DNA from: Apostichopus japonicus
Taxonomy: Eukaryota; Echinodermata; Holothuroidea; Aspidochirotida; Stichopodidae
Direction: 5' to 3'
Length of the DNA: 64,000 nucleotides
Assembly (NCBI RefSeq): GCF_037975245.1
Contig: NC_092575.1
Span: 10,820,001-10,884,000 of the forward strand
The position numbers were made by a program, and so were the translations under genes. How positions within the stretch are numbered: position 1 is the stretch's first letter; each line of letters starts with the position of its first letter. This document shows positions 8,169 through 59,525 of the stretch, piece after piece. Under the pieces are notes generated by a model. That model searched no databases, had not been told where the DNA came from, and saw only the letters and a program-made list of their open reading frames with translations.

Positions 8169-22632
<14,464 letters not shown>

Positions 22633-26099: not shown

Positions 26100-26446
26100 T
26101 GAGGCTTTAAATATAATTCAAAGATCAATAAATCAATTTGGTGCTCACCTACGGCGTTCCTCAAGGGAGTACTTTGGATCCTATCCTGTTTCTCTGCTAT
26201 ATCAATGACATGTGTGGTTCATTGAACATTGATTTTAAGCTTTTGCTTTATGCAGATGATAGTGCCATTTTGTTCTCCCACAAGAGCGCCAGGGTGATAT
26301 CCCAAAGACTTGGAGAGGCACTTGAAGCGTGTAAAGTGACTGGTTCAATGACAACAAGCTCTCTCTCAAAAGATGAGAAAACTGAATTAATTCTTTTTGC
26401 TACTGATAGCATGCTCCAAAAAGCTGGTGACTTCAAAATTACTACC
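26100..26446 (+). pseudogene. LINE reverse transcriptase relic, 5' part
   Basis: RT core with YGVPQGSTLDPILFLCYIND followed by the catalytic box LLYADDSAI and the LSKDEKTELILF segment. The order and spacing fit the CR1/Jockey-type LINE reverse transcriptase. Upstream domains are absent. It is interrupted by the hAT-type element at 26452. Confidence 0.8.
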
Positions 26447-26451
26447 AGTGG

Positions 26452-28867
26452 CAGGTGCGTATCCGGGGGGGGGCGTTGGGGGCGCGCGCCCCCCGGGTAA
26501 GAAAAAGAGGAGAGAAAAAAAGAGAAGAAAAAAGGAAAAAAGAGGGGGGAAAGGAGGAGGAGGAGAGGAAGGAAGGGAAAAGAAAAGGAAGAAAGAGAGA
26601 AAAAGGAGAAAAGGAGGGAGTTAAAGAAAAACGCCAAGACACCGGGAAGAGAAAGAGGAACAGCGACATTATTACAGCGCTGATCCCTATATTATATACA
26701 CAGGGTAGCCAGTGACGGATCAAGGATTTCGGAAGAGACGTTTGCCTCACCCTACCCCTTACACCGAAAACTCAATTGTTGACGTTTCCATTTTTCTTCT
26801 CTGACTCATGATCTATATATTCTATATATGGTCTATCATAACGCGTATGTGTGTATGTACGCCTTAATCAATTGTAGAACGGTGCTATGAAACCAACTGT
26901 GGCTGCACTCGACTGTGTCGTCGGGGAACATGACAAATTTCGGGAAGGGTGCGACCGCCCCCCCCCTTCAGCATATTTTTTTTATGATATCGCTAGTAAT
27001 TTCAAAATAGAAAGTGATTAGATGCAACTTACAAGGCCTGGAAAGTGTCATTTCCAGCGATCTGGGAGGCATTTTCAGCCAAAATTCTCGTATACGCTTC
27101 GCGCCAACTAATGGAGGAGCTACGCTTAGATAATTTGTCTACGGGCTTCGCCCTTTCCTTGGCAAATTCCTTGCTACGCGCCGGTTCGAATTTGTAAAGC
27201 AAACAGCAGATATCACATCATATCAGTGAGCATGAAAATGGCCTTCCAGGATGAACAGCCTCAAAATTGTCCGACTTGCCCGAAAAAAATAACCAAAAAT
27301 TCCAACATGTCAATGTCAATATCATATAAACAAGCATCGGTTATTACATCAGATGCCATCGTGTACCTTACGGTCCGTGAAAGTTGCTCAGTATACCGCG
27401 GGATGCTAATGTAAACAACGAAATGTCTTATGTAGATGGAGAAAATCATCGAGGTCCAATTATGTTAAAACTCTCTTTGACATTAGTAATGGCGAATTAG
27501 GGGCTGCAGCCCCCACCCCGCCTCCTACGCCTATGTGTGTATTGTTCGGTTTCGGAAATATCTGCTATATTTTCATTTCCTTCAACCAAGTTTTATAATA
27601 GCCGTTATAAGAGGTTTTAATATTTGTACACCAAGTAATTAACTGTGTCTGAATTTTTGAAAATTTCTGACCGACATTCTTCATCACACGTCCCTCTACT
27701 CGTGCAATATTGAACGGTCTGTTAGGGGTTCAAGGAGTTCTAAAGGGCGGCGGAACCGGGGGGCACAGGGGGCACGTGCCCCCCCCCCTCCCTCACTTTT
27801 CCTCAGGTTAAAAATGTGCCCTTTTTCTACATAAAAATTTAGGTGTCTCAAGTTAGCAAGAGGCCAGGGAACCAGAATGAACACTCGGGAAGGGCCGTTT
27901 CCGGCCATCTGAGGGGTTTGTAAAACTAAAAAATTCTTGCACGCTCCGCGCCAACCGATGGTGGCGCTCCGCTCAGATAGTAGTGCCGACAACTTTGCAA
28001 ATCCTGGCTACGCCGCTGACTTTCTAATGAATTTCTGTGGGTTAAACTCAAAGCTATTTAGAATGGAAAAAAAATTGTTAAGATATTAACAAGGAATAAA
28101 CTCTAATTCGGAAGATTCCCACTTTAGCAACTAGCATGATTTCACCTCATTTTGTCTCAAAAGAAAACTTGTTCTATGTTTCCTAATTTGCACATTGGAT
28201 ATTGCAGTGCTAGTATGCATATTTTCCTTGAGGAGGGGGGGGGGGGCGTTGATGGAGTGATGTGTATACGCAAATAAGATAAATACAATAAGAGTTATAA
28301 ATGGTACTAAATATAAGGCTGCATCAGTCCAATCGAATATCTACAAAGTGCCGTTTGATGTCGGTGCCCCCCCCCCAGATTAAAAGTGCTTCTGCCGCCC
28401 TTGGGTTTTTCTATATTGGTTGTCCATAGATGAAATTTTGTGCAACATTATGGGTATGTTTTGAATTGAGTTTAATCACGAGAAACGTGAATTTTCAAAT
28501 TCTGAACAAATAATGGGCTTAAAACCTTGAAAAGTGGGGCTGCCGGATACTGTGGGCCGCGACGTAGAATCACCTACAAAAGCAATGATCCACAGGACAT
28601 GCGATGAGGTTGAACATGATGTGTGACTAGTGACAAACTTCAAAAAGGTTATGGATGGAAAAAAAAAACTATTGGGAAAAACTTGGTTCTCAGGCAAAAA
28701 GTGTACATCTGGTTGGTCATTTTCAAGCCCGAGAAGTGCCATTTCCGGTGATCTGGATGGTATCAAAACCAGAAAATTTCTTGTACGCTGCGCGCCAACC
28801 GATGGTGGCGCTCCGCTTAGATAGTAATTCGCGCCCCCCGGGTTAGAAAATCCTGGATACGCGCCTG
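26452..28867. mobile_element. hAT-like composite insertion with 5 bp target duplication
   Basis: The left end reads CAGGTGCGTATCCGGG and the complement of the right end reads CAGGCGCGTATCCAGG. AGTGG flanks both sides (26447-26451 and 28868-28872). The LINE reading resumes directly after it (KYLGVLIDN). Inside are several further hAT-type ends (CAGTGACGGATCAAGG at 26710, CCTCCTACGCCTATG near 27520, GGCTACGCCGCTG ending 28018), poly-G/C runs and a purine-rich stretch near 26490-26620, so it is a pile-up of nested non-autonomous elements. No transposase was found. Confidence 0.7.
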
Positions 28868-35541: not shown

Positions 35542-36471
35542 GATCACAGAAATACTTTCTAGTACGACGAAGCTCTCCAACGACTGCCATCAAATCCATG
35601 ATCAGTTGAACAGTTGCCATAACCTACCAAACTATTTCCTCTACCCAGAACAGCGCCAATATTACTCAGACGCAATCATTAACTTTTGGCATGTTCAGAA
35701 ATCAGGCGGTACAAGTATCGAAAGCTGTATGGGAAAAATGTACAGGTGGCTGCAGAACACAATTAGACATGCTATCGAAAAAAGGAGTCTTCGTAAGTAG
35801 CTCAACCAGACCGATTTTAAGAGGGCACAACACGCTGGGTTTGTGTGATTTTATTCACGACAAAATTACCACGAGAAAATGTTCAACCTTCTCAATCTTT
35901 CGTGAACCATACGATCGAGTTGTTTCACATTATTTTTTCACCAGAGATATTGCACGGAACTATAATCATTCCAACCAAATCTACGAGAAAGCCACACTTC
36001 TTTCAATTACCGACTGGGTTAAATACTTAGGTTCTGTTACGAAGCAAGCCTTGACCAACCGATATGAAATCACCGAAACAGCCAGCGGAAAACGCAGTTG
36101 CCGATTGCTAGGCAATAGGAAATTACTGACTGAGATGTTAGATGAAAAGTCCCGTAGTAGATGGAGTTTTGGAACACCTGGATCGGTATTTATCTGTGGT
36201 AGGCTTGCAGGACGAATTACAGACTACACTGAAGATGCTACAAAAAGCTTATAATCTAACATTCACAGAATCGTGTGGAGACGTACACGTGTTGAGGGGT
36301 ACATATGAGGGGCTGGATATTTCTGCGCAGAATCAACTGAAAGCCGAAGCTAAACGTGCACTCTTGGAGGACAAAGGAGTAGAAAGATTTATGAGGTTTG
36401 ACGTAAGACTCTACAATAGAGTTAAAGAAATATTTTATGCTCAAAAGCGAGAGCTAGAAAAAATGGAATAA
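35542..36471 (+). pseudogene. Sulfotransferase catalytic exon, frameshifted (Sulfotransfer_2-like)
   Basis: Last exon after a pyrimidine-rich acceptor (ending TTGATAG). The first frame gives NFWHVQKSGGTSIESCMG, matching the 5'-phosphosulfate loop that binds PAPS. After a frame change at about 35735-35760 the second frame gives RGHNTLGLCDF and then STFSIFREPYDRVVSHYFF, the 3'-phosphate binding block. After a second change at about 36140-36170 the third frame gives VLEHLDRYLSVVGLQDEL and ends with [14 protein letters not shown] at 36471. The order is that of Golgi carbohydrate sulfotransferases. Both shifts go the same way (+1), so sequencing error is possible, but exon 1 also has a stop. Confidence 0.75.
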
Positions 36472-43600: not shown

Positions 43601-45344
43601 CTTGGAACCACACCGTGACCGGGTTTTGCGTTACTTTTACCAAACAAACGTAATACAAAAACATAACTGGATCAATCCACTAACAAGTAACGAATTGTCA
43701 ACGTATTTAATTTATAGTCTTTTATTTTCCCCATTCCCATTAAAGGGGTTTTCTTATATAAACGTCCCTGGTCCTACCATTACACCGTTACAGGGTGTTT
43801 TTCAGGGACCTTAAGTTTCCTCGAAGAGGTCGAGTTTGATTTCCCAGATTGCGAAAAAAAGGTTGATTTTACAGCAAATGATAATAATGGATTCAAATAA
43901 GCCTCACATACGTACCGCAAGAAGGAGGATATAAATGTCTTCGTGCTTAATGTCTTTTCGTCGTTATACAGTCATCAATTGAATGCTTGATACGCGTTAG
44001 CGGAAGCCGATTAAAACGCTAAACGTGCACTGTGAATTCTGGACTACTCAGATAGCGTAAACATCTTGTCGTACAGGTTTCAGTAATATGAAAGCAAATG
44101 CACCACTTGAATAGCATTAATCTCTATCTATTGTTATAAACTTGTTTCGAAACAGGAAGATGTGGTTCTTCAATGAGTATAGATAAAGTCAATTAGTGTG
44201 TTACGTTTTGGACATTACGTGGACTACTTGGTATTCCAGTAATGGCGGTTTTCTTCATTTCTTCATTGTTCATCAGATTGTAGTCCATTGACTGGTAAAA
44301 CAAATAGAACAAAGAACAAGGAATCGGATAACATTCATCCGAGATCAAACTAGTTTTATCCTGAGACGTGTACAACGAACAGATAGACCGAAGAGTTGAA
44401 GACATCCCGAAGATCAAGTGTAGTATCTGTTCCCTTTCGAGGGGAATGGTCATAAACACCTCACGATGGTCACACAGTCACATTCTCGAAGCAAGGGGAC
44501 TGGGGTTGAGAAGTAGGAAAGATGTTCGGTAGTTTGGTTTTCGTGCCCAGGTTCTTTCCTGGGAGAGTATCCCCGGTATTCAATAATGGGAGAATGATCG
44601 ACAGATAGATTTTGCTGTAACTTGATTACTCACTTAAATAATTAAATAATGAATAAAGCAGAATTTTAGTCTTGATGTTATAATAGAAAGAAAACAAAAA
44701 ACTTTGAGTCCAAATACTGTTTCTGTAGCTTTTCCAGTATTTTTCATGATATGTATCGTTAAATATACTTAATTTCTGGAATATTCGTTTACTAGGCTAA
44801 CTTGATGGTGACGTCGGCTCCTCATTGCAGTTCTTATAGTTAATGTTAATCCGTTATTTCTTAAGGTCAACCAGAATATGTTCGTTAAACTTCATATTGT
44901 AACGCCGACCGAATTCTATTCAGTCAAGTCGGAACACAGAGTCTCGAAAAGTGAGCCAGAGAGTTGAAGTAAGGTCTAAAAACAAGTAAAATGTCTAGAA
45001 TCACCAGTCACCAGGTAGAGCCAGGAAACACAATAACGGTTCCTTAAAGGAGATATCGCTCGTAGACTTTTTTTTGAGGGCGCTAGCATTATCGCGGTTT
45101 CAGGGAGGTTTAATGGGACCCATATTACTCACGTGACCTCGGTGGCAAATTTAGATCAGTGAATAGCACAGGCAAGCGTATGCGTACTGTAACAAGCTCG
45201 TACCCATGCACACATAATGTTATAACACAGCATTTCAGTGTACCGCACAGGATGTTCGTACTCGATAGTTTGTAGTTTGTGTGCCTTTAGTAAAGAATAC
45301 TGTACGATTTTCGTCCAAATACAATCGAGAGTATAGTGAAAATC
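40650..45344. other. Intergenic, no gene recognised
   Basis: Contains dispersed repeats (41765-41990; a PLE-type 3' fragment near 42000-42080) and a possible small hAT insert near 43455-43570 with poor ends. No exon-like reading frame was found before the start codon at 45345. No clear TATA box was identified upstream of it. Confidence 0.5.
41765..41990 (+). repeat. Dispersed repeat, direct copy of 60745-60965
   Basis: Shared phrases in the same order include ACAGAG..CA.C.TTGGATGACATT, CACCAT.TGT and GTCCAGTCACTTTAACT. A related fragment is visible near 25450. Class unknown. Confidence 0.65.
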
Positions 45345-45622
45345 ATGGAAAAGGGATCAGGGCAAGGAGAATCTGGCGAAAGAAAACGGCCTTATCCTGG
45401 AACGAGCGTAGGTTCAAGTGGAGGAAGGCCTTTGTTGCATGGACCGAATAGGAACCGCAGTGTGAAGGAACAACAGCGACAAAGAGATGCCACGAAGATT
45501 TATCTTCTACGTTCTTATGTAAACTGGCAAATGGAGAAAGAACTCTACAAACATTTCCATGATTTGACTTTTGTTAGCAACGCAGATTTCGCAGAACATT
45601 TGCTTCAGGATCACACAAAAAG
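45345..45622 (+). CDS. DDE-like gene exon 1
   Basis: Starts at ATG 45345 and ends at AAAAAG before GTAATG, phase 2. It encodes a Gly/Ser/Arg-rich leader and a helical stretch (KIYLLRSYVNWQMEKELYKH). Confidence 0.75.
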
Positions 45623-48600
45623 GTAATGATTTGCTTAGCTAGGCTAAAACTGTTTGGGTAGTACTACTACTAGTACATGGTAGTACTACAGGGTATTGTC
45701 CTAGGTTACATGTATAGCCTAGGCCTAGTCAGTATTGCGAAGTACAGAATACTGCGAAGTTCAGACATCCCTAAGAAATACACGATTACACCATGATAAC
45801 CTACAAGCAAAAGCCAATATCACTAAAAACTACAAAGCTACAGTTATTTCCTCTCCAAAATGACCCGTGTGCAAGTATGTACGTACATATTTGTCAATAA
45901 CATGAATATATAGTTTTGGTGTATTTTAAGGCTTAGGTACGTGTTCGAACTTGGCAGTGTCTATGCTTTTGTTTTTGTAACATACATGATTTGATAAGCC
46001 TAGGCTATGTAACTAGGCCTATCATTCATTATTTTTCCAATGGACCTAGTGTGTGCTAACCTTATCATACTTATCCTAGCACAAAGTAGCAGTAAGTTTT
46101 CTTACTGAGTCTGTTTGTGAATGCTTGTCATGAAGATACTGTATACAGTTAAACATTAAAATATCCTTCCTAAAGAAGACTGACAGGGACTGGGGGTCTT
46201 TAGTTTCACTCCTCATATTTATGCCATGGAAAGCTGGGCCTTCTCATCACTAAAAAGTAAACTGTTTTTGCCTCAACAAATTGATGGAAACATATTTTCT
46301 AACCACTAGGCCTAGGTGATCTGTTCATCCCCACCCCTCCAGGTTCTAAATTGTTATCAGCTGTCCTTGTTTGAAGAATAATTCTTGTGAATGAGCATTT
46401 GAAAGAAAAGTATTAAGTATGAAGCCTCATCTTTGTCCAGTCATAATTAGGCATATAACATAGGACTAAGGCCTATAGTATTAGTAATAAGTATGATGTT
46501 CATAGTAATTGCATCCCCTAATTTTGTAATATGCACCAGTGAGGAAGGCCTACTATGCTGTACAAATAAAACCACATGGACCTGCATAAAAATAATGCAT
46601 CTACATAAATACTTTAGAATCACTCCTAACTGATTTACATGTTGGGTCATTCCATATCAAATCACCAAATTTTGGGGTATGTTGTAGTTTGACATCTTTG
46701 AAAAATTCCCAGATTTATTGTATGAGTGGACCACCACAAAATAAGCATATTCTGAAAATTTCAGTTGCATTGCTTTACTATTGGCCGATTTAAAATTTAA
46801 AATTAAAATTCTTTCTTCTATTTTATAAGTCTTCTAATTAAATGAATTCAACCAGGAGCAGACAAGTACATTGCATATAGTATTTTTTTATATGAAATTA
46901 AAAACTGCACAGTATTGAATGACCTTGAAGTACAGTACAATACCCAGGCTCAAAACACATGGAACATCAAAACAGGCAAAAACGTTTTTTGTAAAAATCC
47001 CAAACTTTGAGGATTTTTCATTTCAAAATAAGGCAAAACACCCTCCTGAATTTTTTTGTGCAAACAGGGTGGTACTATATCTCTTCCAGAAAAAATTATC
47101 AATTTTTTTTTAATTTGACGCGTTTTGAGTTATTGGCCGTCAAAAACGACCTCTTTTGTACATCGGAGCAACTTAACAACTTCATAAATTAATATTGAGA
47201 ACAGCTAGAACCCTGAAATTTGTTATTGTGTAAGAACTTTGTACTCATTAATAAAGTATAAACCCTGACAGCTCTAACATGGTTACTTTGGTAAAAAATT
47301 GGCATCAAAACCCCTACCTCATGCTGAATCGCAGCATGAAATAGCAACTTTAGAGTTGCACAACTTGCAAACATATTATAAGAAAGCATTGTAATCACTA
47401 TTTTGTAATATTTGTAGTAGACATAATAACCTCTGAAAGAATCAAGTACCATGAAGCAATGGTTTGGGAGCAATTCATCACTAAAAATGGCACATTTTTT
47501 AGCGAAAAATACAAACATAAAATATTTTGACACTTTTAAGTTGACCCAACTCCACAAGACAATATTTTTGTAGCCTAATTTTTTCTTTTCCTGTTCTATG
47601 GGTTAGACTCTATAGGCATCTGTAATAGAAAGGTAGTAGAAATTCTGAATGTTCAATTGCTGAGAAATGAGACCTCAAAAGTCAAGAAAATGCCAAAATG
47701 CCATGGTGGCGACAAATTGCGGAATTTCAAAGTGTGATAAATCGGCCAATTGTAAAGTAATGCAACTGAAATTTTCAGAATATACTTATTTTATGGTGGT
47801 CCAATCATAAAATAAATTTGGGAATTTTTGGAAAGGGTGCAGCAACAGCCATCCGTGATTTGACACGGAATGACCCTGTTTTCACTTTTCACACCGCTAC
47901 GTATGCAACTAGATCTTAGGTTTTTCTAAGCTCAGCCACAGCCAGCATATATGCAATCAAGTTTTAATGGTTCATTTGGGCAACAGAGTGTATACTGTTA
48001 TCTACTGACTGTCTGTCCAATATTCCAGCAATCATGTGTACATTTCTGTGTTTGGGATTTTTGAAGGAACCCAACTGCTATGCAAGAAATTAGGTTAATT
48101 AGCCTCACTAATTGAGGGACCATATTAGTACATATAGCTATACCTATATAAACCTTTATATAGCCATGCCTGGAGGTAAGAAAGTACCAGTTTTTTGTGT
48201 AGGCCTGATGCTCATACTTTATGATGCTGTCCTAAGTTATCATATTTTTATAGTCAGTACTTTGCTTGTTTTTGTTCAGCTTCTTGTAAATGATCTGATG
48301 TTTAGTGTTCAAAAATGATAATATCTATTAAATTTGGTGGCCAAAACTTATCTCTTGTGGAGAGTAATCGAGCGTTAATGGTAGTCTGATATCAAGCTAT
48401 TCACTTAAACAGGAAGTCTTCACAATGGTGGGCTTATGTCATGGAGTAAGCTAGCATCACAATTCTCACACATGAAACCAACTGCTCACATAAACAGGAA
48501 GTTTACACAGTACAGTAGGTAAATAACGAGTGTACATCAGTCTTTGATCTTGAAAAAGACTGGACATCTTTTAGTGATATGAAACCAAACAGTTCACTTA

Positions 48601-51600
48601 GACAGGAAGTTTACATAGTAAATTGTACATTGACATGTGAGCTGAAGTTGATGGGCAAGCAGTTGGGCAACACAAAATTATCCTCACAATTTTCTTGAAA
48701 GGTACTGAGGTTTATGGATATGTTGAAGAAGAGTATGAAAGAACATCTCATCCTTATCTGGGTTTAAGTCAATATGGGTTAACAATATGTCATTATTGAA
48801 AAGTGTTTGTTTGTTACTTTTCTCTTTCATATTTTTTCTTGGTTAGGTACAGTATGAAAACCTGTTGTTTTTAATGATTTGGTCATTACCAGATTCATTA
48901 AGCATACAATTAAGCTTGTGGTGTACTGTACAGTTAATTTACTATTTCAGTTAATATGATCTACGGACAATTTTTTTGTTTCATTGAACAGGTGTCAAAT
49001 GCATCTTTTCCGGAAAGATGCCGAAAGTCAGACAGAGGCATTCTCAGCAGCTGTCACCACAGAAAGATCAGTTGACACTCAGAAAGGAGAAGGTAAATTT
49101 ATATGTTTATCCTTGCATGAATTACAGACTGGAAGAGCAGTGCTAATCTTATATCTGATCTGATGTGATCAGAAAAATTATACAATTTCATTCTAATTAA
49201 ATTCCCAAAGAAAAGAAAAAATGGTAGCATATTGCTCATCCACTAAAAAGCATACATGTGTATTAGAATTTATAAAAGTAAGTGGGCCTGATATTATCAG
49301 GATCTTCTTTAGAGGCAAACTGACTAGTAATAGGAAATTCAAGAGACACAATAGAGCCTGGAACAGAGAGGACATTGTGAGCACAAAGAAAGGAGTTAAT
49401 GGTGTATTGAACAAAAGGAGTCAGGGAAAGCAGAGGTAATAGATAAACTGTGGAGTACAAAACGAGGATTAAGTAAGGAGAGAGGGCAAATAAACTATGG
49501 CAGAATACAGAGATGGAGCAGGATAAAGTTAGTCATGTCCCTCCTGTATTTTGAGCCCAAGGTTAAGGCATTTCGTCCACTCTCTCTATCTCTGCTGAGG
49601 TGTACTATGTCTGAGATGTTAAGTCTACGAATTTAGTTACCTGTTGGGACATGTCTTTAATGGTATGATTGGGCAGCTGCAAGTGTTCCCCTACTGGAGT
49701 CTCCATTTTCATGGTATTGCCATTGACCTGTGACTAGAAATGCTTCTTGAGGGTGGTCTTGGTTTCACCAACATACTTGTAACTCAATATCCTATACTTT
49801 AATGTTCTCTAAACTAAATGACACCATTTGGATTAAAATATCAGTTTCCAATGCTGCATAAGTATAACAATTTCTAAACAAAAGTATATTTTTAGTCACA
49901 GCCATAGTTTCCAATGTGTACAGTACATATTGCAGGAAACTTGCAAGCTAGTAATTATTGTTTTATGTCATCTTTACAGAAACTTTTGATCCAGCTACTT
50001 CGACACCTCTCAAGAAGCCATCTGCCATGTTCTGTCCAATGTCACCAGTAGGAGTAGATATAGAGCAGCATGGGAGAGAAACTGCAGACCATACACATAC
50101 ATTGTAAGATTGTAATATTGAACTTATCTGAATGCAGATCTAATTAAAACATTGCAATAAGGTTGACACAGACTTACAGCCTGTATGAGCTGCATAGTTA
50201 CTAATGTCATCAATTTCAATAGAAGCCTTGTGTATCAGATTGTTGGCAAACTCCACATCTCTCTCTGTTAAGCAATCAAGTCAAATGGTATCATTTCTAT
50301 AGACTGCTTTGGTATAAAATATTATCTACAGACAATGAGCAAGATCAGCTGCTTAGCATGATCTTAGAAGGATCCTTTTCTCCACCACAATAGTTGTTGT
50401 TTTATGTTGGGAATGGAAGGTGGCGAAGGGGAGACTTGCTACATTTAACAAGGATTTGGTAAGGGAAGAAGAAACCCAAGGGTATGGAGGGAGGAGGGTG
50501 GGGGCAGTCACTCTTCACTGAACATTTACTATCTGTGCTGTTAATGATTATCTTTAAACGATTTTGTGTGTGTATTAAGTTTGTACGAGTGTATGTATGT
50601 GAGGAGGTATATATTGGTGGATGGATGGATGTTTGTATCTATTTACATTTACGTGTGCACAATATGCATATCAATTGATGCTTTGTGCAGTTTTACTAAG
50701 ATCAAGAAGGTTTCATGATTTCACTCTACATGTCAGCTTCATTTATATAAAAAAATTGTTTGAGTTACATCATCGATACCACAATGCAATTATTTTTATT
50801 CCGGTTCGAATCAGCTTAGCACAGTATAAGTCAGTTTTTGAATTGTGTAATTGAACTTCATATTTCACTACCTTGTCATCAACTTACTCAAGCCATTCTT
50901 TTAATATCTGCATTGTTATTGTTTACAGGGGTAACAGTTGTTCCCAAAAAGAACTGCAGAAAGAACTGGAGTACTGCTCAGATGATGAAGGAGAGGAAGA
51001 CAAATTTGGAGACTGGGAAGATGTTATGGATGAACTAAACCAGAGTAAACTTTCTGTGTAAGTTTATTTGTTGAACGTCTGACTGTTTATGACTACTGTA
51101 CATTTTAGAATTTTGAAGGTTTGATAATTGATTTTTTCCTTGATGAAAAGTCCAAAAGTATAAACTAATAAATTCAATTGTTGACTACTGATGGCTCAGT
51201 ATCGAGTGTGGAGTTGAAAAAGCAGTGTTGCTATGACATAAGTTGGTGCATGTGTAATGACTTAGCTAAGTACATAGTTAAGGTGGGCACTGAGCACTAG
51301 GCATAGACCCCCCCCCCCCTCCCACGATTTTCTGTTTTTTGGTTCCTTGCTTTTTGCAAAGCAAGGAACCTATGCGTTCAACTTGGCGTGTGTGTGTGTG
51401 TGTATGTGTGTGTGTGTGTATGTGTGTGTGTGTGTATGTGACGCTTGGCTTGTGTACACGATATCTCAATAAGGAAATGATGTATCATGATCAAACTTGT
51501 TGGGTGGATAGCCCATAGTGAGAGGAAGATCCCTATTGTTTTTGGTGCCCGCAAAGGTCACCAAAGGTCAGTTAGATGCCAAAAACCAATATATTAAAAA

Positions 51601-54600
51601 CAGCAATAACTCCCATTGTCAGGGTCCGACATGGTTGATATTTTGCGAGTAGTTGTGAATGGGGTAAGGGATCGTTCCCAAACATAACGGTAATGTGATC
51701 GAAGGTCAACAAAGGTCAATTAATGATAAAAAACTAGTATTTTTGCGATAACTTGAGAACGAAATGTCCGTTAGGGTTGGATGTTGCTTTAATGTCATCC
51801 AATTGTCGACCCGCATCTGGGTGACCCTTGACCTCAATTTGACCTCTGGTGACCTTTACATGTTTTGGGGGATTTTTACAGTTTTGATGCTATTTTTAGA
51901 TGTCAAAGGTACCTTCTGATCATAAATGTCAATAGGTTGACCCCGTGTGACCTTTATGTGCGAAGTTATATGAGGTCAAAGTTTTTCGGTCAGAGTTAGG
52001 ATGGTTGTACAGACTTGTCGTTTTGTTTTTTGGAATCAGGAGATTAAACTACATCTGAAACCAAGGTCAAAAGGTCAAAGGTCACATTAGAAAAAATGTG
52101 CTTATTTTGGGAGGAAACGAGCAAAAAAGAAAATGTTTGGTTTTGATGCTAGATTTGGATATCAAAGGTACCTTCCGATCAAAAATGTCAATTGGTTGAC
52201 ACCTGTGTGACCTTCGTGTGCGAAGTTATATGAGGTCAAAGTTAATTTTCAGACATTTAATGCAACAACTCCCAGTTCCAAGGTGTGACATGGTTGATAT
52301 TTTTGGACAAGTTGGAAATGGTATAGGGGAATAGTTTCAAACTTAACGGTCATGTGATCCAACGTCACCAAAGGTCAGCTAATGTTAAAAAAGTAGTATT
52401 TTGGGGGGAGAAAATGGGCAAAGAAAAAATGTTTGAATTTTTACAGTCATGCTCTATTTAGGTCTCACCGATCAAAAATGTCAATTGGTTGACCTCCGGG
52501 TGACCTTTGTGTGTGAAGTTATGTATACAAGTTCAAAGTTAATTTTCATACATTTAATGCAATTAAATCTCAATGCCAAGGTGTGACATGGTTGATATTT
52601 TGGGACAAGTTGTGAACGGGGTGGTGGAACATTTTGAAACTTAAAGGTCATGTCATCTGAGGTCACCAATGTTATCATATCTGTTGACACGCTTGTAGGT
52701 CTCTTATATTTCTTACATTTTCGACACCATATTTAGATCTCAAAAGTGCCTTTTGATCAAAAATCCGATCACATTTTGTGATCACAAAAGTGGTGGTTAT
52801 AGTGTTGGTTACTTTATGGGAACATGTAGGACCACAATTACTTGGACTATTTGAGCCCAATCTTGCTTGATAATATTACTGTATGTGTATTGTCAAATAC
52901 CCCAAGCAAGGAACCACAGTGCCCTTGGGCTCTTGTTTGAATGTAGGTGTTATTCCATAGGAAATGTTTTCTCCATAGTGGGGTCTTCTCACATTCACCT
53001 TCCCAGGGGCTGTAGTGTAAACATGATACTGTACATATCAAACAATCTACTGTCTAGATCTCATATCTGGTATACATTGTTAACTGCAAGATGATGTACT
53101 TATGTCCATCGTAAACATGACCTGTTGGGAATCGAGTTGAATATATTTTGTTGATATTTTTTTCAGAAACCAGCTTGAAACTAGTTTGCAAGTGGATGAG
53201 GAGGTTTTTGGATTTCAAGGAGACGACAGAGATTCAGATGAAACCCCAGTTTTTGAACCAAACCAACCTAAGCAAGACACTCAACCTTTCATTGACTCCT
53301 GTGTTAAAGAAGATAAAATAATTGTATGGGTGTCTAAGATAGAAGAACTGCTCAAGCAAGTCCATGGAGAAACATGCCCTAACCCCAGTTGCCAAAGAAT
53401 GCTGGTATACCAAAACACTTTCACTGGATCAGGCTTGAAAGTGACATGGTCATGTTGTGAGGGACATAGCCCTGGTCAATGGTTCTCACAACCATTATTC
53501 AACAGAATGTATGCCGGCAACCTTCTAATTGCATCAGGTGTTATTCTTTCTGGAAACAGTTTAATGAAGATGACACACTTTTTCAAAACCATAGGATTGA
53601 AGAGCATCACAAAAGATACATTTTATAGGACCCAGCGGCTGTATGTTGCCCCTGTTGTAGACAATTTTTGGCAAGGAATGCAGCAAGGCATTTTGTCAGC
53701 GTATGGTGACCAACAAGTTGTTCTAGCTGGAGATGGAAGATGCGATTCACCAGGTCACAGTGCTCAGTACTGCAGCTATGTTTTTACTGATGAAGCAACG
53801 AAGAAAGTTCTCCATGTGGAAGTTGTCGATGTAAGAGAGGTTGGGGGTAAAAGCCCAAACATGGAAAAGATGGCATTCGAGCGAGGAATGGATTTCCTTA
53901 TGAAACAGATCAAAGTTGAAGAACTTGTGACAGATGCTCATACACAGATTAGTGCTGCCATGAAGAATTCAGTGAAGTTTCAGGATGTGACCCATCAACA
54001 TGATGTATGGCATGGCGCAAAAAGCATTGCCAGAAAAATTAAGAAAGCCTCCAGATTAAGAGAAAACCGTGTGTTGCAGAGTTGGTTACCTTCAATTAGG
54101 AACCATTTTTGGTTCTCCTCAAAGACGTCCAACCGTGATGATGTAAGGATGAAAGCAACATTCCTTGGGATTCTGCACCATATTGTGGACGAGCATGAGT
54201 GGGTGTTTGGGACAGATGGACGTCCAGGAAAGTGTGCCCATGAAGAGCTGCAGGATGCAGAGAGAACCAAACGCTGGTTGAAGAAAGGTTCTGTTCCACA
54301 CAAGACCCTGGCAACTGAACTGACAGCTCGGCGTTTCTTGAATAACTTGAAGTATTACAAAAACTTCAGGCATACTGGAATTCTGGAATCATTTAATAAT
54401 CATCTACTGATGTATGCTCCTAAACGTCATTCGTATGGCTATGTTGGATTTACTATTAGGAATAAGCTGGCTGTTATTGACCATAACTACCACGCAGACA
54501 GACGACAAGCAACACAGGTGGATGGCACCCCTCGTTTTCAGTGCAAGTACAGTAAGAGCACTGGAAGATTCTCCGCTCAGCCTCTCATGGAGCAAAAGAG

Positions 54601-54793
54601 TTATGGCTACCTACCAGAGCTGATGGGACTGATCTTTTTGCAACGTGCAAACACAACTGGCCCTCTCAACCAGCAAGTACCAATGAAGGAAAATGACCCC
54701 AAAAGGATCCATCCACGAATCTCTCTGTTGCCTAGACCACCTATTCAAGAGCTAATAAAATGTCATAAGAGTCGTTTTGAGCCCTCCAACTAA
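45345..54793 (+). CDS. DDE transposase-like protein, five exons, 752 aa, intact
   Basis: Exons 45345-45622, 48992-49092, 49980-50103, 50929-51057 and 53167-54793 join in one frame (phases 2, 1, 2, 2) to 753 codons including TAA. The N-terminal 200 residues are Ser/Lys/Glu-rich with an acidic patch (SDDEGEEDKFGDWED). Residues 281-308 hold a zinc-ribbon-like set (CPNPSC, then CC and H). The core looks like an RNase H-fold DDE transposase: D400 in LAGDGRCDSPG, D467 in LVTDAH, H493 in HDVWHGAKS, E618 in HTGILESFNN. Similar proteins occur in cnidarians, fish and other invertebrates, from memory only. Introns carry other transposons yet the frame is intact and no terminal repeats were found, so it is either domesticated or a recently active multi-intron element gene. 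It converges with the ballast-domain gene 580 bases away. The likely start is ATG 45345; a GTG lies upstream in frame. Confidence 0.82.
46644..47876. mobile_element. DNA transposon with about 165 bp inverted repeats, in intron 1
   Basis: The left end GGGTCATTCCATATCAAATC pairs with the right end (complement GGGTCATTCCGTGTCAAATC). Complementarity continues for about 165 bases (shared TCTGAAAATTTCAGTTGCAT and TTGGCCGATTT). TGTT flanks both sides (46640-46643, 47877-47880). No transposase is visible inside. The superfamily is unknown; a 4 bp duplication that is not TTAA excludes typical Kolobok and piggyBac. Confidence 0.82.
48992..49092 (+). CDS. DDE-like gene exon 2
   Basis: 101 nt, GAACAG acceptor and GTAAAT donor, phases 2 to 1. 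It encodes CQMHLFRKDAESQTEAF and a Thr/Ser-rich tail. Confidence 0.75.
49190..49782 (-). pseudogene. Penelope-like element 3' fragment with GIY-YIG endonuclease relic
   Basis: On the minus strand from about 49782, YKYVGETKTTLKKHF, then TPVGEHLQLPNHTIKDM and KFVDLT are readable with stops between. This is the order of the GIY-YIG nuclease domain of Penelope-like retroelements. The following sequence (49440-49190) resembles the fragment near 42000-42080, as expected for the 3' untranslated part. It lies antisense in intron 2 of the DDE-like gene. Confidence 0.65.
49980..50103 (+). CDS. DDE-like gene exon 3
   Basis: 124 nt, TTTACAG acceptor and GTAAGA donor, phases 1 to 2. It encodes ETFDPATSTPLKKPSAMF and MSPVGVDIEQHGRE. 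Confidence 0.78.
50929..51057 (+). CDS. DDE-like gene exon 4
   Basis: 129 nt, TTTACAG acceptor and GTAAGT donor, phases 2 to 2. It encodes a coiled, acidic segment (SQKELQKELEYCSDDEGEE). Confidence 0.8.
51341..52925. repeat. Repeat element with GGTTCCTTGC ends and AGGTCA words, in intron 4
   Basis: It begins with the hairpin GGTTCCTTGCTTTTTGCAAAGCAAGGAACC (51341-51371, in two arms) and ends with CAAGCAAGGAACC near 52908. In between, three or more degenerate units repeat (GGTTGATATTTTG..CAAGTTG, AAAAATGTCAATTGGTTGACC, GAAGTTATATGAGGTCAAAG). AGGTCA is frequent, including AGGTCAAAAGGTCAAAGGTCA-like clusters near 52063. A TG repeat lies at 51385-51440. Confidence 0.7.
53167..54793 (+). CDS. DDE-like gene exon 5 (catalytic core, terminal)
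   Basis: 1,627 nt after a TTTTTTTCAG acceptor. It encodes residues 211-752, including the zinc-ribbon-like cysteines and the D/D/H/E positions, and ends at TAA 54791-54793. Codon use is even and there are no stops over 541 residues. No canonical AATAAA was found in the 580 bases to the next gene. Confidence 0.9.
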
Positions 54794-55299
54794 GTCAAGT
54801 TTATTCCAAAATGTCACCAACTTCCCCCCTCCCGGATTTATTAGCTTATACCGAGGGGAACATGATAATGAAGAAAATCTTGATTAATGTTATGATGTGT
54901 TTATGAAGTAGAAATTCACATATTGGTTTGAGAATTTGAAACTTTATTCAGTCCTCTTATCAGCTACAGTAGTACAGTAGTCAATAATAGTTCTCAATAG
55001 AGTTTTCATTATGGTTGCATAGAATTGGGGGGAACATAGCATATTAGCTTTTAAAATCGTATTTATTGATCTATAGAACGGTAACATATAAGTGGAATAA
55101 TTTAAGAACTCCATAGATGCAATACTTTTTTAAATAATATAACATGTGTATGGTTAAACCTGAAACTAGCCATGATTCTACCTCAAATGTTATCAGTATC
55201 TCAAAGGAAGCATTCTTTGAGGCTGTTGGATTTTTTTAACATAAACAGAACATGTGTGTAAGTCACATGGCATACACAGTAGTGTAACTAAAAACTCAA

Positions 55300-55305
55300 T
55301 TTATT
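55300..55305 (-). promoter_or_regulatory. Polyadenylation signal AATAAA of the ballast-domain gene
   Basis: AATAAA on the minus strand, 68 bases past the stop codon at 55373-55375, a normal distance for a short 3' untranslated region. Confidence 0.6.
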
Positions 55306-55372
55306 GATTGTTTAGTATTTAACACTTTTTTTCACTAATGAACTACTCTTTATGGCATCTAGTTTATTTTCT

Positions 55373-55879
55373 TCAGTCCTCCAAGATGCCATTACCAATT
55401 TCCAAACCTTTGTACATGTTATTAGCAGCTGGAAATCTCATCCTGATTGCCCAAATGCAGCAAGATGGTATCACTCTTCTTCTTCCTGCACCTAATCTGC
55501 CATGCTGCCAATATATAAATTGTTTGTAGGCATAGTGCCTATAATTTTTGTTAGTTCGAACGGCTGCATCTGCCAATATGTCTTCTGTTGCCCGCATTGC
55601 TACCTCGAGTACATGTGCATTAATGCAGACAGTTAGGAAAACCTCACTCGTTGACAGACATCCTTCCTGCAACCTGCAGCATTTTTTTTCCACATCTTGA
55701 GGCATTTCTTTACACCGGCCACAGTTACACCATCCTGGGCTCTTAGGTGAATGGTCACTTTCCTCTTGAAATGAAGAATTCTCCTTTAACAGATAGTCTT
55801 CATATGCACCTGGGTTCCTTTTCAGTAGATCGGTGGCTACATTCTCCAAGTCTTCCCTCCCAAGCTCATGTACAAAGGT
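55373..55879 (-). CDS. Ballast-domain gene exon 3 (terminal)
   Basis: 507 nt, begins after TTTTTTGACAG with ACC TTT GTA and ends at TGA. It holds the whole ballast-like domain. The TTG codon within it is not a start. Confidence 0.85.
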   Translation of the reverse strand, partial: TFVHELGREDLENVATDLLKRNPGAYEDYLLKENSSFQEESDHSPKSPGWCNCGRCKEMPQDVEKKCCRLQEGCLSTSEVFLTVCINAHVLEVAMRATEDILADAAVRTNKNYRHYAYKQFIYWQHGRLGAGRRRVIPSCCIWAIRMRFPAANNMYKGLEIGNGILED

Positions 55880-57593
55880 CTGTCAAAAAAATTATGTATA
55901 CTAAATATATTTTATGGGCATTTTCTTAACACATACAGTTTTGCATTCCAGTGTGATAAACAAACAAACTTATGTCAAAATTAAATGATTTGAAATCACA
56001 CATAGTCAAATGTGCCAGTGAGTTTAAAATTGTATGTATATGTCATATCTTGAAAGTTCCATTTTCTTTTTAAAATCATATACGACAGTGAAGTGTGGAT
56101 TGGGCATTGTCATTGATTTTGTAATAGTTTCTCCATACGTTCTTCTATCACATATCTGCTTATAATTACATGTTATTATCTGTAAAATGTTGTGGCAGAA
56201 CATGATAGCTAAAAGTAAAGTGTAATCTTTCTAAATCACTCCCCATACACACTCATAAACACACATAACATAAGTGTTCAACATTGAGATATGCCTAACA
56301 ATTGATGTTTATTACTTTGCATGTGGTAAATTTAATCATTAAAAGTCTAGTCACAAATACCTTTATTTTTTCTTCAATTGTGTCTTCCAATTGTTCTGGC
56401 ATGCCTTCAGTGAATCTCTCGTTGTGTTCATCATCTTCAGAGTCACTTGAATCCTGAACAAAGACATTTATGATGGTGTTGTAATTTTTGGGTAAAAATA
56501 TAACAGTAATGTATTGGGCAGATTGAAAAAGTTGTAAGAAAAAGCATTGGTTCTTTATATTTCTTTGACTTGATTAATACATTTAATTATTTTCCCAGTT
56601 TTTACATATCAATACATGCAACTTGAGATTTTTTCACTTCCATAATTTACCTTGTTTTATATTTCTGTGTTCAGTTGGTAACTTTGCAGTTTCATGACAG
56701 GTGAAAGGTTTTGGGGTAATACAGTATGTATGTGGTGTCCTAAGAGAGAGGGAGAGAGAGGGGGGGGGGGTCGAATATGACCCGGCACCCTCAAACATAT
56801 TAGAAACCATTATAGCAAGTTCTAGCAGTTTGGAGACCTCTAGTAAGGCTATATAGTATTGTGGGTACCCTTAAAGGTATGCTGTATTGGATCCAAATAA
56901 GCCAGATGTTTACAAATGGTCACCTCTGGTAAAAAAAACTCTTAAAATGTTTTTGTTACCACCTTGGAGGTGAAATTTACCCCACTGGGTACATTAAGTC
57001 ATATTGTGTGTTCATTTAGAATGTCTGAGAACAAATTGGAGAGTAACTACTGCCAGGAAGGTACTTTTTGAAAACTTACATTGCTCAGTTATTGCGTGCA
57101 TTCACTGTCATGTTCACAGAGGTCTTTCCGACTGAAGACCGATAAAATCGCAGGCCTAGCCTTGATAGCTGTATCCGACCGAAGGGGATTGGAGGTGTGG
57201 TAAGGGGGGGGGGGGGTTGACAGTTATAACATGACAATAGAATCCTTTATAGCTACCATTGGTCAATCAAGTATGGTCCAAAGAACAAACGCATAATTCA
57301 GCCTACATATGTATGGTCCCATTTGTTCCCACCATATTGGCGAATAGGCAAAACCCCTATGATATTGAAAGTGAGTCAGATGTTTTTCTACTTACCGGAG
57401 GTTCACGATTTGCGCAATGTCTTGTTCTTGTGCCACATTGACATGATTCTGAACAAAAGAGATCATACATACGACAGGGGCAAGCACTATTCCCAGACTT
57501 TCGTTGACAGGTCGTGCGACATTCACAAACCGTTGGATCAGCAGCTATTGATACATCTGCATCTCCAGATTGAGATAAATTGCTTTCGTCCAT
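55373..57593 (-). CDS. P2X7-type ballast-domain protein, three exons, 265 aa
   Basis: Exons 57593-57396, 56453-56361 and 55879-55373 on the minus strand, all phase 0, with good sites (GTAAG donor; TTCAG and TGACAG acceptors), total 265 residues plus TGA. The start AAAATGG is a good context. Residues 23-61 form a CXC-like cluster (CECRTTCQRKSGNSACPC, LFCSESCQCG). Residues 66-97 are acidic and charged. Residues 145-250 match the Cys/Zn ballast domain known at the C-terminus of vertebrate P2X7: GWCNCGRC (148-153), CC (164-165), C171, then YRHYAYKQF, W, and IPSCCIWAIRMRFP with CC at 237-238. No P2X channel domain or membrane segment is present, so it is a free-standing, presumably intracellular relative. 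It converges with the DDE-like gene. Confidence 0.85.
56361..56453 (-). CDS. Ballast-domain gene exon 2
   Basis: 93 nt (31 codons), TTGTTCAG acceptor and GTATTT donor, phase 0-0. It encodes DSSDSEDDEHNERFTEGM and a Glu/Lys-rich end. Confidence 0.8.
57396..57593 (-). CDS. Ballast-domain gene exon 1
   Basis: 198 nt from ATG to GAACCTCCG before GTAAGT. It encodes the Cys-rich cluster with about a dozen cysteines, likely metal-binding. Confidence 0.82.
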
Positions 57594-57599
57594 TTTGTT

Positions 57600-59525
57600 C
57601 GATAGTAGCTATGACTGTGAAGCAGGAGCTTGGCCACCCTCTAATTCAAGGCGGGCAAGGTTGGGGAAATTCGATCAAGGAGAAACAATCAGAGAATGGC
57701 CAGCTTTGTATTAATCTACACGATTTAACAAGCCGGAATATTTGCGGATTAACAGCGGGTATAAATATATGTATCGGTTTAATTTTCACTGGTGTTCATT
57801 TCCGTTGCCAGGAGGGGATATGATTTGAACGTGGGGGAGGGTGTGAGTGTGTGGGGGGGGGGTCCCCTATGTAGTATTCAACGATGCTATATTTTACGTT
57901 TATCGTCTTGTATCACATGTATATCAAAAACCTTTATCGACACGATCAATCAGTCCTTACTCTCACCTCCTTTCATGCACTGGTGTATAACCGTGTATTT
58001 ATTTTCTGGCAAGATAACAGTTAGGCATCAGTAAGGGTAAATAGGTCATAACAACTGAGAGAGTTTTGTGTCCCTGTAGTCACTTACATCCTGGTAGCAG
58101 TATAGAGAGAAGAAGCCTACTAGATCAGAGACCATAGTCATCTATTGCTGTGTCTTATTTTCCATCATCCTTGAAACATTATATCCTCTCCCTTTGATTT
58201 CTTGATGTCATAAAGCTGTATTTATGAAGTGCAATATTTAATTCCAGTATTTAGATTGTATATTCTTCTTGTGTATTTGACAGTATCCCAGTGATCTCCA
58301 TTTTTGTGCTCTTGGTTTTCTTTTCTCTGTATTTAAATTCATATTATATCTATCTCTACCCCTATAGCCTCCACCTCCACATTTTCTTTACTTTCTTCCT
58401 CCATCCCTTCATCTGTCTTTCACTCTTGTTTTTTTCACCTTTCCTTCCATCTGTTTACCCTGTATGTTTTAGTTTGCGGACTCCCCCCCCCCCCACATCT
58501 CACCCCCAGAAAAATGTTCACAAGGTTGACAAGTCTCCCCGTGCTAGTCCCAAGCTATACACCCTTGTTGTGGTGACCGTTCACTATACTTGCAGGTTAC
58601 TACAAGGTTGGCGCATCTGTAAAAGTTGGAAATACACTGTGTTTTTTTACAGTAAAATAGCATTAGGTTACTGTACTTCAAAAGGCTAAACTTTCTGATA
58701 TTCGATACAGCATAAAGCATGCAGAGCAACTACGAAACCAGGACACCCGAACTGTTCGGACTTCGACTGCTCACCATGTAGGCCTAAAAGAGTAAAACAA
58801 GGGAGCTGTTAGAGTAGCAGCTCAAACTAATACGCTCGATGCAAAGCTCGACCGTAACCTATACTGTACAGCCACTGAGTGTAGATCAGTGTGTACAGCC
58901 CATTAGTTGTGAAAAGTTCTGAACGTAGAAACAAACCACAGACGTTTGTATCACACAACACACACGAAAACGCGGCGTAACAGTGTACCGCATATGTACT
59001 GCCACTGACAAGAAAATGTGCAGGAATTTGTCAAGGCCACCGCTTCAGGTAACCAAACCCGTTTATTGCTTACTCGCCGTAAATACGGGATTGCTAAGAA
59101 ATTACGAGACAACAGCGACGAACCGGTAGAGGGTAGTATTGATATTATTTTTGAATCGGGTGGTGTGAAGGACAGAATTTACGAGGAATTTACGAGCGAT
59201 CCCACCTTTAACACACAAATATTACTTTTTATTAAGATCCGTGTAGAGAGTACACATGAGTAATATTGCAGTAAACGATTGCAACTTAGCGCTGACCAAC
59301 TACTTTCTCAACTTTTGGGCTTCTGCCTCTTACGAACAATAATCCAATCCTTTTTACCAAGCAGCTTGAATAGCTGAAGTCGGTTACCCCCTTTCATGTT
59401 TTTGATGTAGGCCGAAGCGCGCGCGCAGGACTGGGTTCCTTTTGTTTTGGAAAACCGTCTGCACTACTGGAAAACACGGCGAGCTTCCTTAGATCTAAAG
59501 AGAAAGGGTTAATTAAAGGTCTGGG
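57600..59525. other. Upstream and intergenic region, no gene recognised
   Basis: Upstream of the ballast-domain gene. An 81-codon open stretch at 59018-59263 (KYGIAKKLRDNS, GSIDIIFESGG) has an upstream stop at 59006 and only a weak acceptor near 59022; I cannot assign it. Confidence 0.45.

Follow-up and report, generated by a model that had tools for sequence, protein, structure and literature searches.

Two convergent genes at the locus

The window, a 64,000-nucleotide stretch of Apostichopus japonicus DNA, contains two spliced genes that converge on opposite strands, their stop codons 579 bases apart and both frames intact. One encodes a DDE transposase (five exons, 752 amino acids, 45345–54793 of the forward strand) and the other a small ballast-domain protein, KolX (three exons, 265 amino acids, 57593–55373 of the reverse strand). 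A first-pass annotation of the same letters had described both genes and their closely spaced ends; its two models were reproduced exactly, with GT...AG introns and no internal stops.

Exon 1 of the transposase gene (45345–45622) carries the start codon and is placed by a splice-consistent model, a similar exon being found in the C8 and C7 families. Exons 2 (48992–49092), 3 (49980–50103), and 4 (50929–51057) are defined by AG/GT borders and reading frame. Exon 5 (53167–54793) encodes the catalytic core (D400, D467, D490xxH493, E618) and matches the Pfam Mutator family (PF20700, E 1.9e-8); ISL3 scored E 0.2, below the cut-off, and Pfam returned no Kolobok label. The DDE residues, which had been reported as kept, are indeed present (D400, D467, and E618) and, together with D490, are invariant in six aligned rows, with H493 replaced by proline in one of them. 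The D490-x-x-H493 element, located between the second D and the E, has the C/DxxH form that is the Kolobok signature. Between C/DxxH and the last E, where Kolobok transposases carry a zinc finger, there are invariant C and H residues (C355, H357, H377, and H401 in A1 numbering), which are candidate ligands of such a finger.

KolX exon 1 (57396–57593) encodes a CXC-like cysteine module (residues 23–60), exon 2 (56361–56453, AG/GT borders, in frame) an acidic linker, and exon 3 (55373–55879) the ballast domain, all on the reverse strand. The P2X7-type ballast domain proposed earlier is borne out by the Pfam P2RX7_C profile (PF20478, E 1.7e-32), by solved P2X7 chains (best E 2.5e-21), and by residue mapping. 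Each of the eight cysteines in the ballast domain of KolX has a cysteine counterpart in P2X7, and P2X7 R546, H547, Y550, and R578 have equivalents there too. In contrast to P2X7, KolX has no attached ion channel, the equivalents of R574 and K583 are not conserved, and P2X7 C493, C548, and C552 have no counterpart. A paper on the P2X7 ballast and NANOR-like proteins (PMC7016195) states that H547 had not been found in invertebrates, whereas this KolX carries the equivalent histidine (R211-H212). Kojima and Bao (2022, PMC9587614) describe the tail of P2X7 as a captured KolX, a protein with the ballast fold, and the KolX residues seen here are consistent with that capture. An AlphaFold model of the ballast exon (seven sequences, mean pLDDT 44.8) was too poor for use and does not confirm the fold. 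Screening IMG/VR with the ballast alignment gave 74 pattern matches, none of them a relative.

The N-terminal module contains nine cysteines common to four element families, this one and three others. Its C-x-C spacing resembles that of CXC/tesmin-type zinc domains. Four such exons had no Pfam match at E 10, and an exon profile had none in the PDB. The earlier description of KolX as a CXC-like plus ballast-domain protein thus stands for the ballast half; for the other half it holds in cysteine spacing, with no Pfam or PDB profile match behind the name, so that "CXC-like" is used here as a term for spacing. The words "CXC" and "tesmin" are absent from the main text of PMC9587614, which makes no mention of such an N-terminal exon in its KolX.

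Pairing of ballast and transposase genes across the genome

A convergent Kolobok-type transposase lies within 15 kb of 32 of the 41 ballast matches of at least 50 bits, and a non-convergent one lies beside none. For the remaining nine no transposase was found within 15 kb, and a search near them with a second family's transposase exon as query was also negative. Within 5 kb the count is 30 of 41 (80 transposase rows used). Uniform placement of 63 ballast matches and 60 transposase loci would give about 0.06 neighbours within 5 kb, an underestimate because the matches cluster on C16 and C17; the pairing is not due to chance. Viewed from the transposase side, a convergent KolX accompanies 33 of 39 loci of at least 40% identity and is missing from six. 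Because nine ballast matches and six transposases are unpaired, the pair is not universal. Homologues of the two genes are nonetheless adjacent in this genome, convergent in all 32 pairs, and the small protein matches the P2X7 C-terminal profile; neither of the findings that the first-pass annotation named as refuting its proposal (homologues never adjacent, no P2X7 profile match) was obtained.

These counts, for which coordinates were entered manually, have the following scope. The ballast search scored 150 of 471 candidates, and the sample comprised 63 of the 150 rows, namely all 41 of at least 50 bits and 22 weaker ones. Of the 87 weaker rows excluded, 61 scored 29–33 bits (two of these were fetched); as a 42.0-bit row (C14:20410955) was left out, only the 50-bit count is complete. 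The transposase search scored 80 of 322 candidates, and 94 rows were merged to 60 loci, with 20 of 75 rows from a second search, those outside the 60 loci, added. The transposase-side count used identities for 90 of the 94 rows and six KolX rows in addition to the 63, some of them overlapping.

Several ballast exons are open although no transposase was found within 15 kb (e.g., C19:11523823 and C17:16725225). These are possible domesticated genes, though they may instead be remnants of dead elements. C15:2159299 is a further ballast gene with no transposase found nearby.

Termini, target site and relationship to known elements

Both genes lie within a 14,160-bp unit (45048–59207, forward orientation) whose limits are given by the ends of BLAST blocks in copies on contigs C5 and C9 with unrelated flanks. 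On the left, the alignment of the three copies stops at a TTAA (45044–45047; repeat I12), followed by a terminal inverted repeat, AGGAGATATCGCTCGTA (45048–45064, forward strand). The right inverted repeat, AGGTGGGATCGCTCGTA reading inward (59191–59207, reverse strand), precedes a second TTAA (59208–59211) placed by the copy alignment. With its TTAA copies the unit spans 45044–59211, which is broader than the gene pair originally delimited. The 17-bp inverted repeats are identical at 14 of 17 positions as reverse complements, and the termini, 5′-AGG...CCT-3′, fit the 5′-RR...YY-3′ mark of Kolobok. TTAA flanks both sides in all three copies, as expected of the 4-bp Kolobok target duplication. 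Across the genome, TTAA joined to the terminus with at most three mismatches occurs at 298 sites, compared to 27 for a reversed control; six exact sites were fetched among the matches listed, and six distance examples were chosen by eye.

Elements of the Kol0 lineage possess an accessory protein KolX with a ballast fold, and two-gene units carrying it are reported across animals (PMC9587614). The Kolobok-1_XT type of Kol0, as described there, resembles the window element in its two genes, its DDE transposase with C/DxxH, its ballast KolX, its TTAA duplication, and its 5′-RR/YY-3′ ends. In Xenopus, full-length XKol copies of 6.8–13.9 kb have AG ends and are flanked by TTAA, apart from one right flank that reads ATAA (PMC6004289); flanks, ends, and comparable length are shared with the window element. 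The passages of that paper concern the transposase, however, and the term KolX is absent from it.

Assignment to another TTAA-inserting superfamily, piggyBac, or to the KolobokP lineage is very improbable. TTAA is common to piggyBac too, but the window proteins have no piggyBac Pfam match, and 5′-RR/YY-3′ ends are given as a mark of Kolobok against piggyBac (PMC9587614). KolobokP likewise places an accessory gene downstream of the transposase on the complementary strand; in the same account it has terminal direct repeats of about 450 or 660 bp and a His-Me nuclease. The window element, in contrast, lacks long terminal direct repeats (between its first and last 1,000 bp the longest direct match is 20 bp at 80%), and its second gene matches P2RX7_C, with no nuclease found. 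The ends, the TTAA, the DDE residues with C/DxxH, and a KolX whose ballast domain is recognizable in sequence by PF20478 and P2X7 chains fit Kol0. The locus at 45044–59211 is thus almost certainly a recently inserted, autonomous-looking Kol0-lineage DNA transposon of the Kolobok superfamily. Because elements of this type, and their connection with P2X7, have been in print since 2022, it is a fresh, well-preserved example and not a new kind.

Dispersed copies and empty sites

The C5 and C9 copies differ from the window element by 0.2% (28 substitutions in about 14.1 kb; BLAST blocks 99.4–99.6% identical) and from each other by eight substitutions. Their flanks are unrelated, and both genes are open in all three copies once the exon borders of the window element are applied to them. 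KolX coding differences number one or two per pair, all of them amino-acid changes, and give too little material for a test of selection. When the two 240-nt flanks are joined, they align without a break over the junction in at least 22 rows at 86% identity or more (40 of 50 candidates scored), and three such rows, read and aligned, have a single 4-base site, TTGA. The element landed in a host repeat, and the uninterrupted repeat copies are paralogous empty sites.

The first-pass annotation had left two readings: a two-gene mobile unit, and a domesticated transposase gene with a host ballast-domain gene as its chance neighbour. The second draws on the intact frames and on the open ballast exons without a nearby transposase. 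Domesticated genes, however, lose mobility and remain at one place, whereas this pair has inverted repeats, TTAA-flanked copies, near-identical counterparts at unrelated sites, and empty sites; because three dispersed copies carry target duplications, domestication is refuted at the window locus, and we give it hardly any credence. Least credible is a segmental or assembly duplicate, which the mere eight substitutions between the C5 and C9 copies might suggest and which the flank comparison refutes, as homology ends at TTAA on both sides in three copies and empty sites exist. For this locus we reject domestication, duplication, piggyBac, and KolobokP alike. The transposase and KolX genes are parts of one recently mobile transposon; in this genome the two-gene unit is upheld by precise ends, 17-bp inverted repeats, TTAA in three copies, near-identical dispersed copies, empty sites, and the 32 convergent pairs.

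A second element family, on C21 and C9, also has TTAA and AG...CT ends. The C2/C8 family has TTAA at its right ends only, and the left break between its two copies is not at TTAA.

A possible role of KolX

By analogy with the superfamily, the transposase would bind the termini, excise the element, and insert it at TTAA. More tentatively, KolX may assist a step of transposition, its CXC-like, presumed zinc module might touch DNA, and its ballast domain, structured by zinc and possibly binding GDP, could serve in assembly or regulation. No paper on KolX function was found in the open-access literature searched. A joint reading would hold that (i) KolX is a two-module cofactor, with the zinc module on element DNA and the zinc/GDP ballast assembling or gating the transposase complex, (ii) the nucleotide-sensing switch of P2X7 is transposon-derived, and (iii) besides Nanor, additional host genes of this genome, for example at C19:11523823, are independently domesticated KolX. 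We regard this combination as speculative and rather unlikely as a whole; if it is true, P2X7 gained a nucleotide-sensing switch, beyond a fold, from a transposon.

The pair is intact and was recently mobile, its ends are defined, and two sister copies exist; it offers what would be needed to compare excision in the presence and absence of KolX, for whose function the conserved cysteine module is a testable hint. The parts of the literature searched yielded no earlier description of this N-terminal KolX module across four families, of open ballast exons lacking a nearby transposase, or of the internally deleted derivatives that retain the first-exon regions of both the transposase and the KolX genes.

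Structure and recent movement of the element

The transposase gene (45345-54793, + strand; 752 amino acids, five exons) and the gene for the second protein, KolX (57593-55373, − strand; 265 amino acids, three exons), were modelled with consensus splice sites and converge, with 579 bases between their stop codons in the rebuilt models. Blocks that the window, which lies on contig C15, shares with one place each on contigs C5 and C9 are 99.4-99.6% identical by BLAST and span 45044 to 59212-59213 in the window, while the DNA beyond them is unrelated in all three places. TTAA stands at both ends of the element, followed by 5′-AGG, and the termini form 17 bp inverted repeats with 14 identities. In full alignments, 28 substitutions (0.2% of about 14.1 kb) separate the window copy from either of the other two, and the C5 and C9 copies are 8 substitutions apart; both frames are open in all three copies when the window's exon boundaries are applied to each. 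The 45044-59211 unit is a DNA transposon that has moved recently, a single mobile unit that carries two intact genes and is inserted at TTAA.

When the two flanks of the window copy are joined, the resulting 240-base query aligns across the junction with a host repeat in 22 rows of at least 86% identity among the matches listed. These matches begin at base 56 of the query or later, and in several empty-site copies the first 56 bases are found about 1 kb away. At the three empty places that we read, the 4-base site is present once and reads TTGA, against TTAA in the occupied copy, so the target copy of the repeat presumably carried TTAA.

Intron 1 of the transposase gene holds a structure at 46644-47876 whose 92-nt arms are 92% complementary and whose inverted ends are of the GGGTCATTCCATATCAAATCAC type. 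It may be a small transposon nested in the larger one; no duplicated target site could be made out in its flanks.

The transposase and earlier descriptions

The last exon of the transposase matches Pfam Mutator (PF20700, 1.9e-8). Equivalents of D400, D467, D490, and E618 are invariant in an alignment of the window transposase with five other rows from the same genome, in one of which the H493 equivalent is a proline. The element carries marks that PMC9587614 names for Kolobok, namely the C/DxxH motif, TTAA duplication, and 5′-RR/YY-3′ ends. As in its superfamily, the transposase would move the element by cut-and-paste.

The main idea of the first-pass annotation, a two-gene mobile unit that includes a ballast-domain gene, proved right in view of the TTAA, the inverted repeats, the near-identical copies, and the convergent pairs, and is already published: Kojima and Bao (PMC9587614) report that Kol0 elements encode a transposase and KolX, that KolX resembles the P2X7 ballast, that P2X7 came about when a P2X4-like gene fused to KolX, and that Nanor probably derives from KolX by domestication. 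Earlier, Rump et al. (PMC7016195) had described free ballast proteins across animals and two linked neighbour genes; they named no transposon. For KolX with Kolobok, or Kolobok with P2X7, the literature accessible to us yielded only a general review besides PMC9587614.

KolX

The C-terminal part of KolX is a ballast domain (PF20478, 1.7e-32; best P2X7 chain in the PDB, 2.5e-21). Aligned to chain 9e3m_A, its eight cysteines correspond to C477, C479, C482, C498, C499, C506, C572, and C573, and R546, H547, Y550, and R578 of P2X7 have counterparts in KolX, whereas R574 and K583 have none. An H547 equivalent in a sea cucumber differs from the statement in PMC7016195 that this residue is not found in invertebrates.

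The first exon carries nine cysteines in the order C.C...C.R...CPC......C...C.CG.....C.N, with a middle gap of variable length; it recurs in the C8/C2, C7, and C21/C9 families at 33-42% identity and matched no known profile in Pfam and PDB searches. KolX may be a DNA-contacting, zinc-structured cofactor, a reading favoured by its partnership in diverged families and by the conserved cysteine module, and opposed by the occurrence of transposase loci without KolX.

Pairing across the genome

Among 41 ballast matches of at least 50 bits in this genome of 671.6 Mb and 35 contigs, 32 have this kind of transposase within 15 kb, always convergent, and none was found within that distance for the other nine. 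At a threshold of at least 42 bits (one row missing), 40 matches are convergent and 21 lack a transposase. Conversely, among the matches listed, 39 transposase loci reach 40% identity; a convergent KolX accompanies 33 and is missing from six; below 40% (n = 21, again among the matches listed), four are convergent, one is on the same strand, and 16 are without KolX. Given these 16, the less related transposases seem largely to be a Kolobok-like lineage without KolX.

Long open transposase frames at C7:5561592, C16:8066965, C16:3188260, and C7:974897 are 34-36% identical to that of the window; KolX was not found within 15 kb of them, and they are a related lineage, perhaps with another accessory gene.

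The family of C14:11832564, which had looked unpaired, proved on reading to have a convergent multi-exon transposase on the opposite strand; five more copies pair convergently, and C16:30751765 is unpaired. The transposase exon adjoining C17:20260281, used as a query, revealed no partner for the remaining nine unpaired ballast matches.

In the C21/C9 pair, the left end reads TTAA-AGGGGCG... and the right end ...CCTCT-TTAA. For C2/C8 the right end reads ...TCT-TTAA; the left break of that pair is not at TTAA and is not the element's end, since the C8 copy has its transposase exon 1 outside the break.

Deleted derivatives and ballast exons without a transposase

TTAA followed by the terminus, with up to three mismatches, matches 150 sites on one strand and 148 on its complement (reversed pattern, 13 and 14), a count of ends rather than elements because both ends of the element fit with that many mismatches. 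Each of the six derivatives fetched is preserved from the left end across the exon-1 region, with about 87-90% identity to the element there; four have an inner deletion in common (element 1600 to 2843), another has an insertion, and the sixth loses similarity past 1.1 kb. Six examples carry a remnant of KolX exon 1 that stops 4.19-4.20 kb away from the left end. The preserved left region and these remnants indicate that internally deleted copies retain the region of the first exon of each gene.

No Kolobok transposase turned up within 15 kb of the open ballast exons at C19:11523646-11524285 (L054), C17:16725225 (L002), C17:1719889 (L003), C15:2159299, and C2:5853532. The C19 exon shares just 26% identity with the window KolX and differs in its N-terminal stretch. 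Such exons are candidates for domesticated, Nanor-like KolX genes or for KolX-only remnants.

A repeat with the last third of a ballast domain would account for 61 rows (29-33 bits). The two copies fetched, L046 and L047, are 98.7% alike, with one boundary at TTAA-AGTGGCC, and from these the repeat looks like a non-autonomous Kolobok relative.

Elsewhere on the + strand of the window are a piece of reverse transcriptase (26132-26500; RVT_1, 9e-8), a frame with weak similarity to sulfotransferases that falls short of the curated cut-off (35610-36254), and an EGF-like exon (13536-13892; PF00008, 1.5e-7) that is probably part of a host gene.
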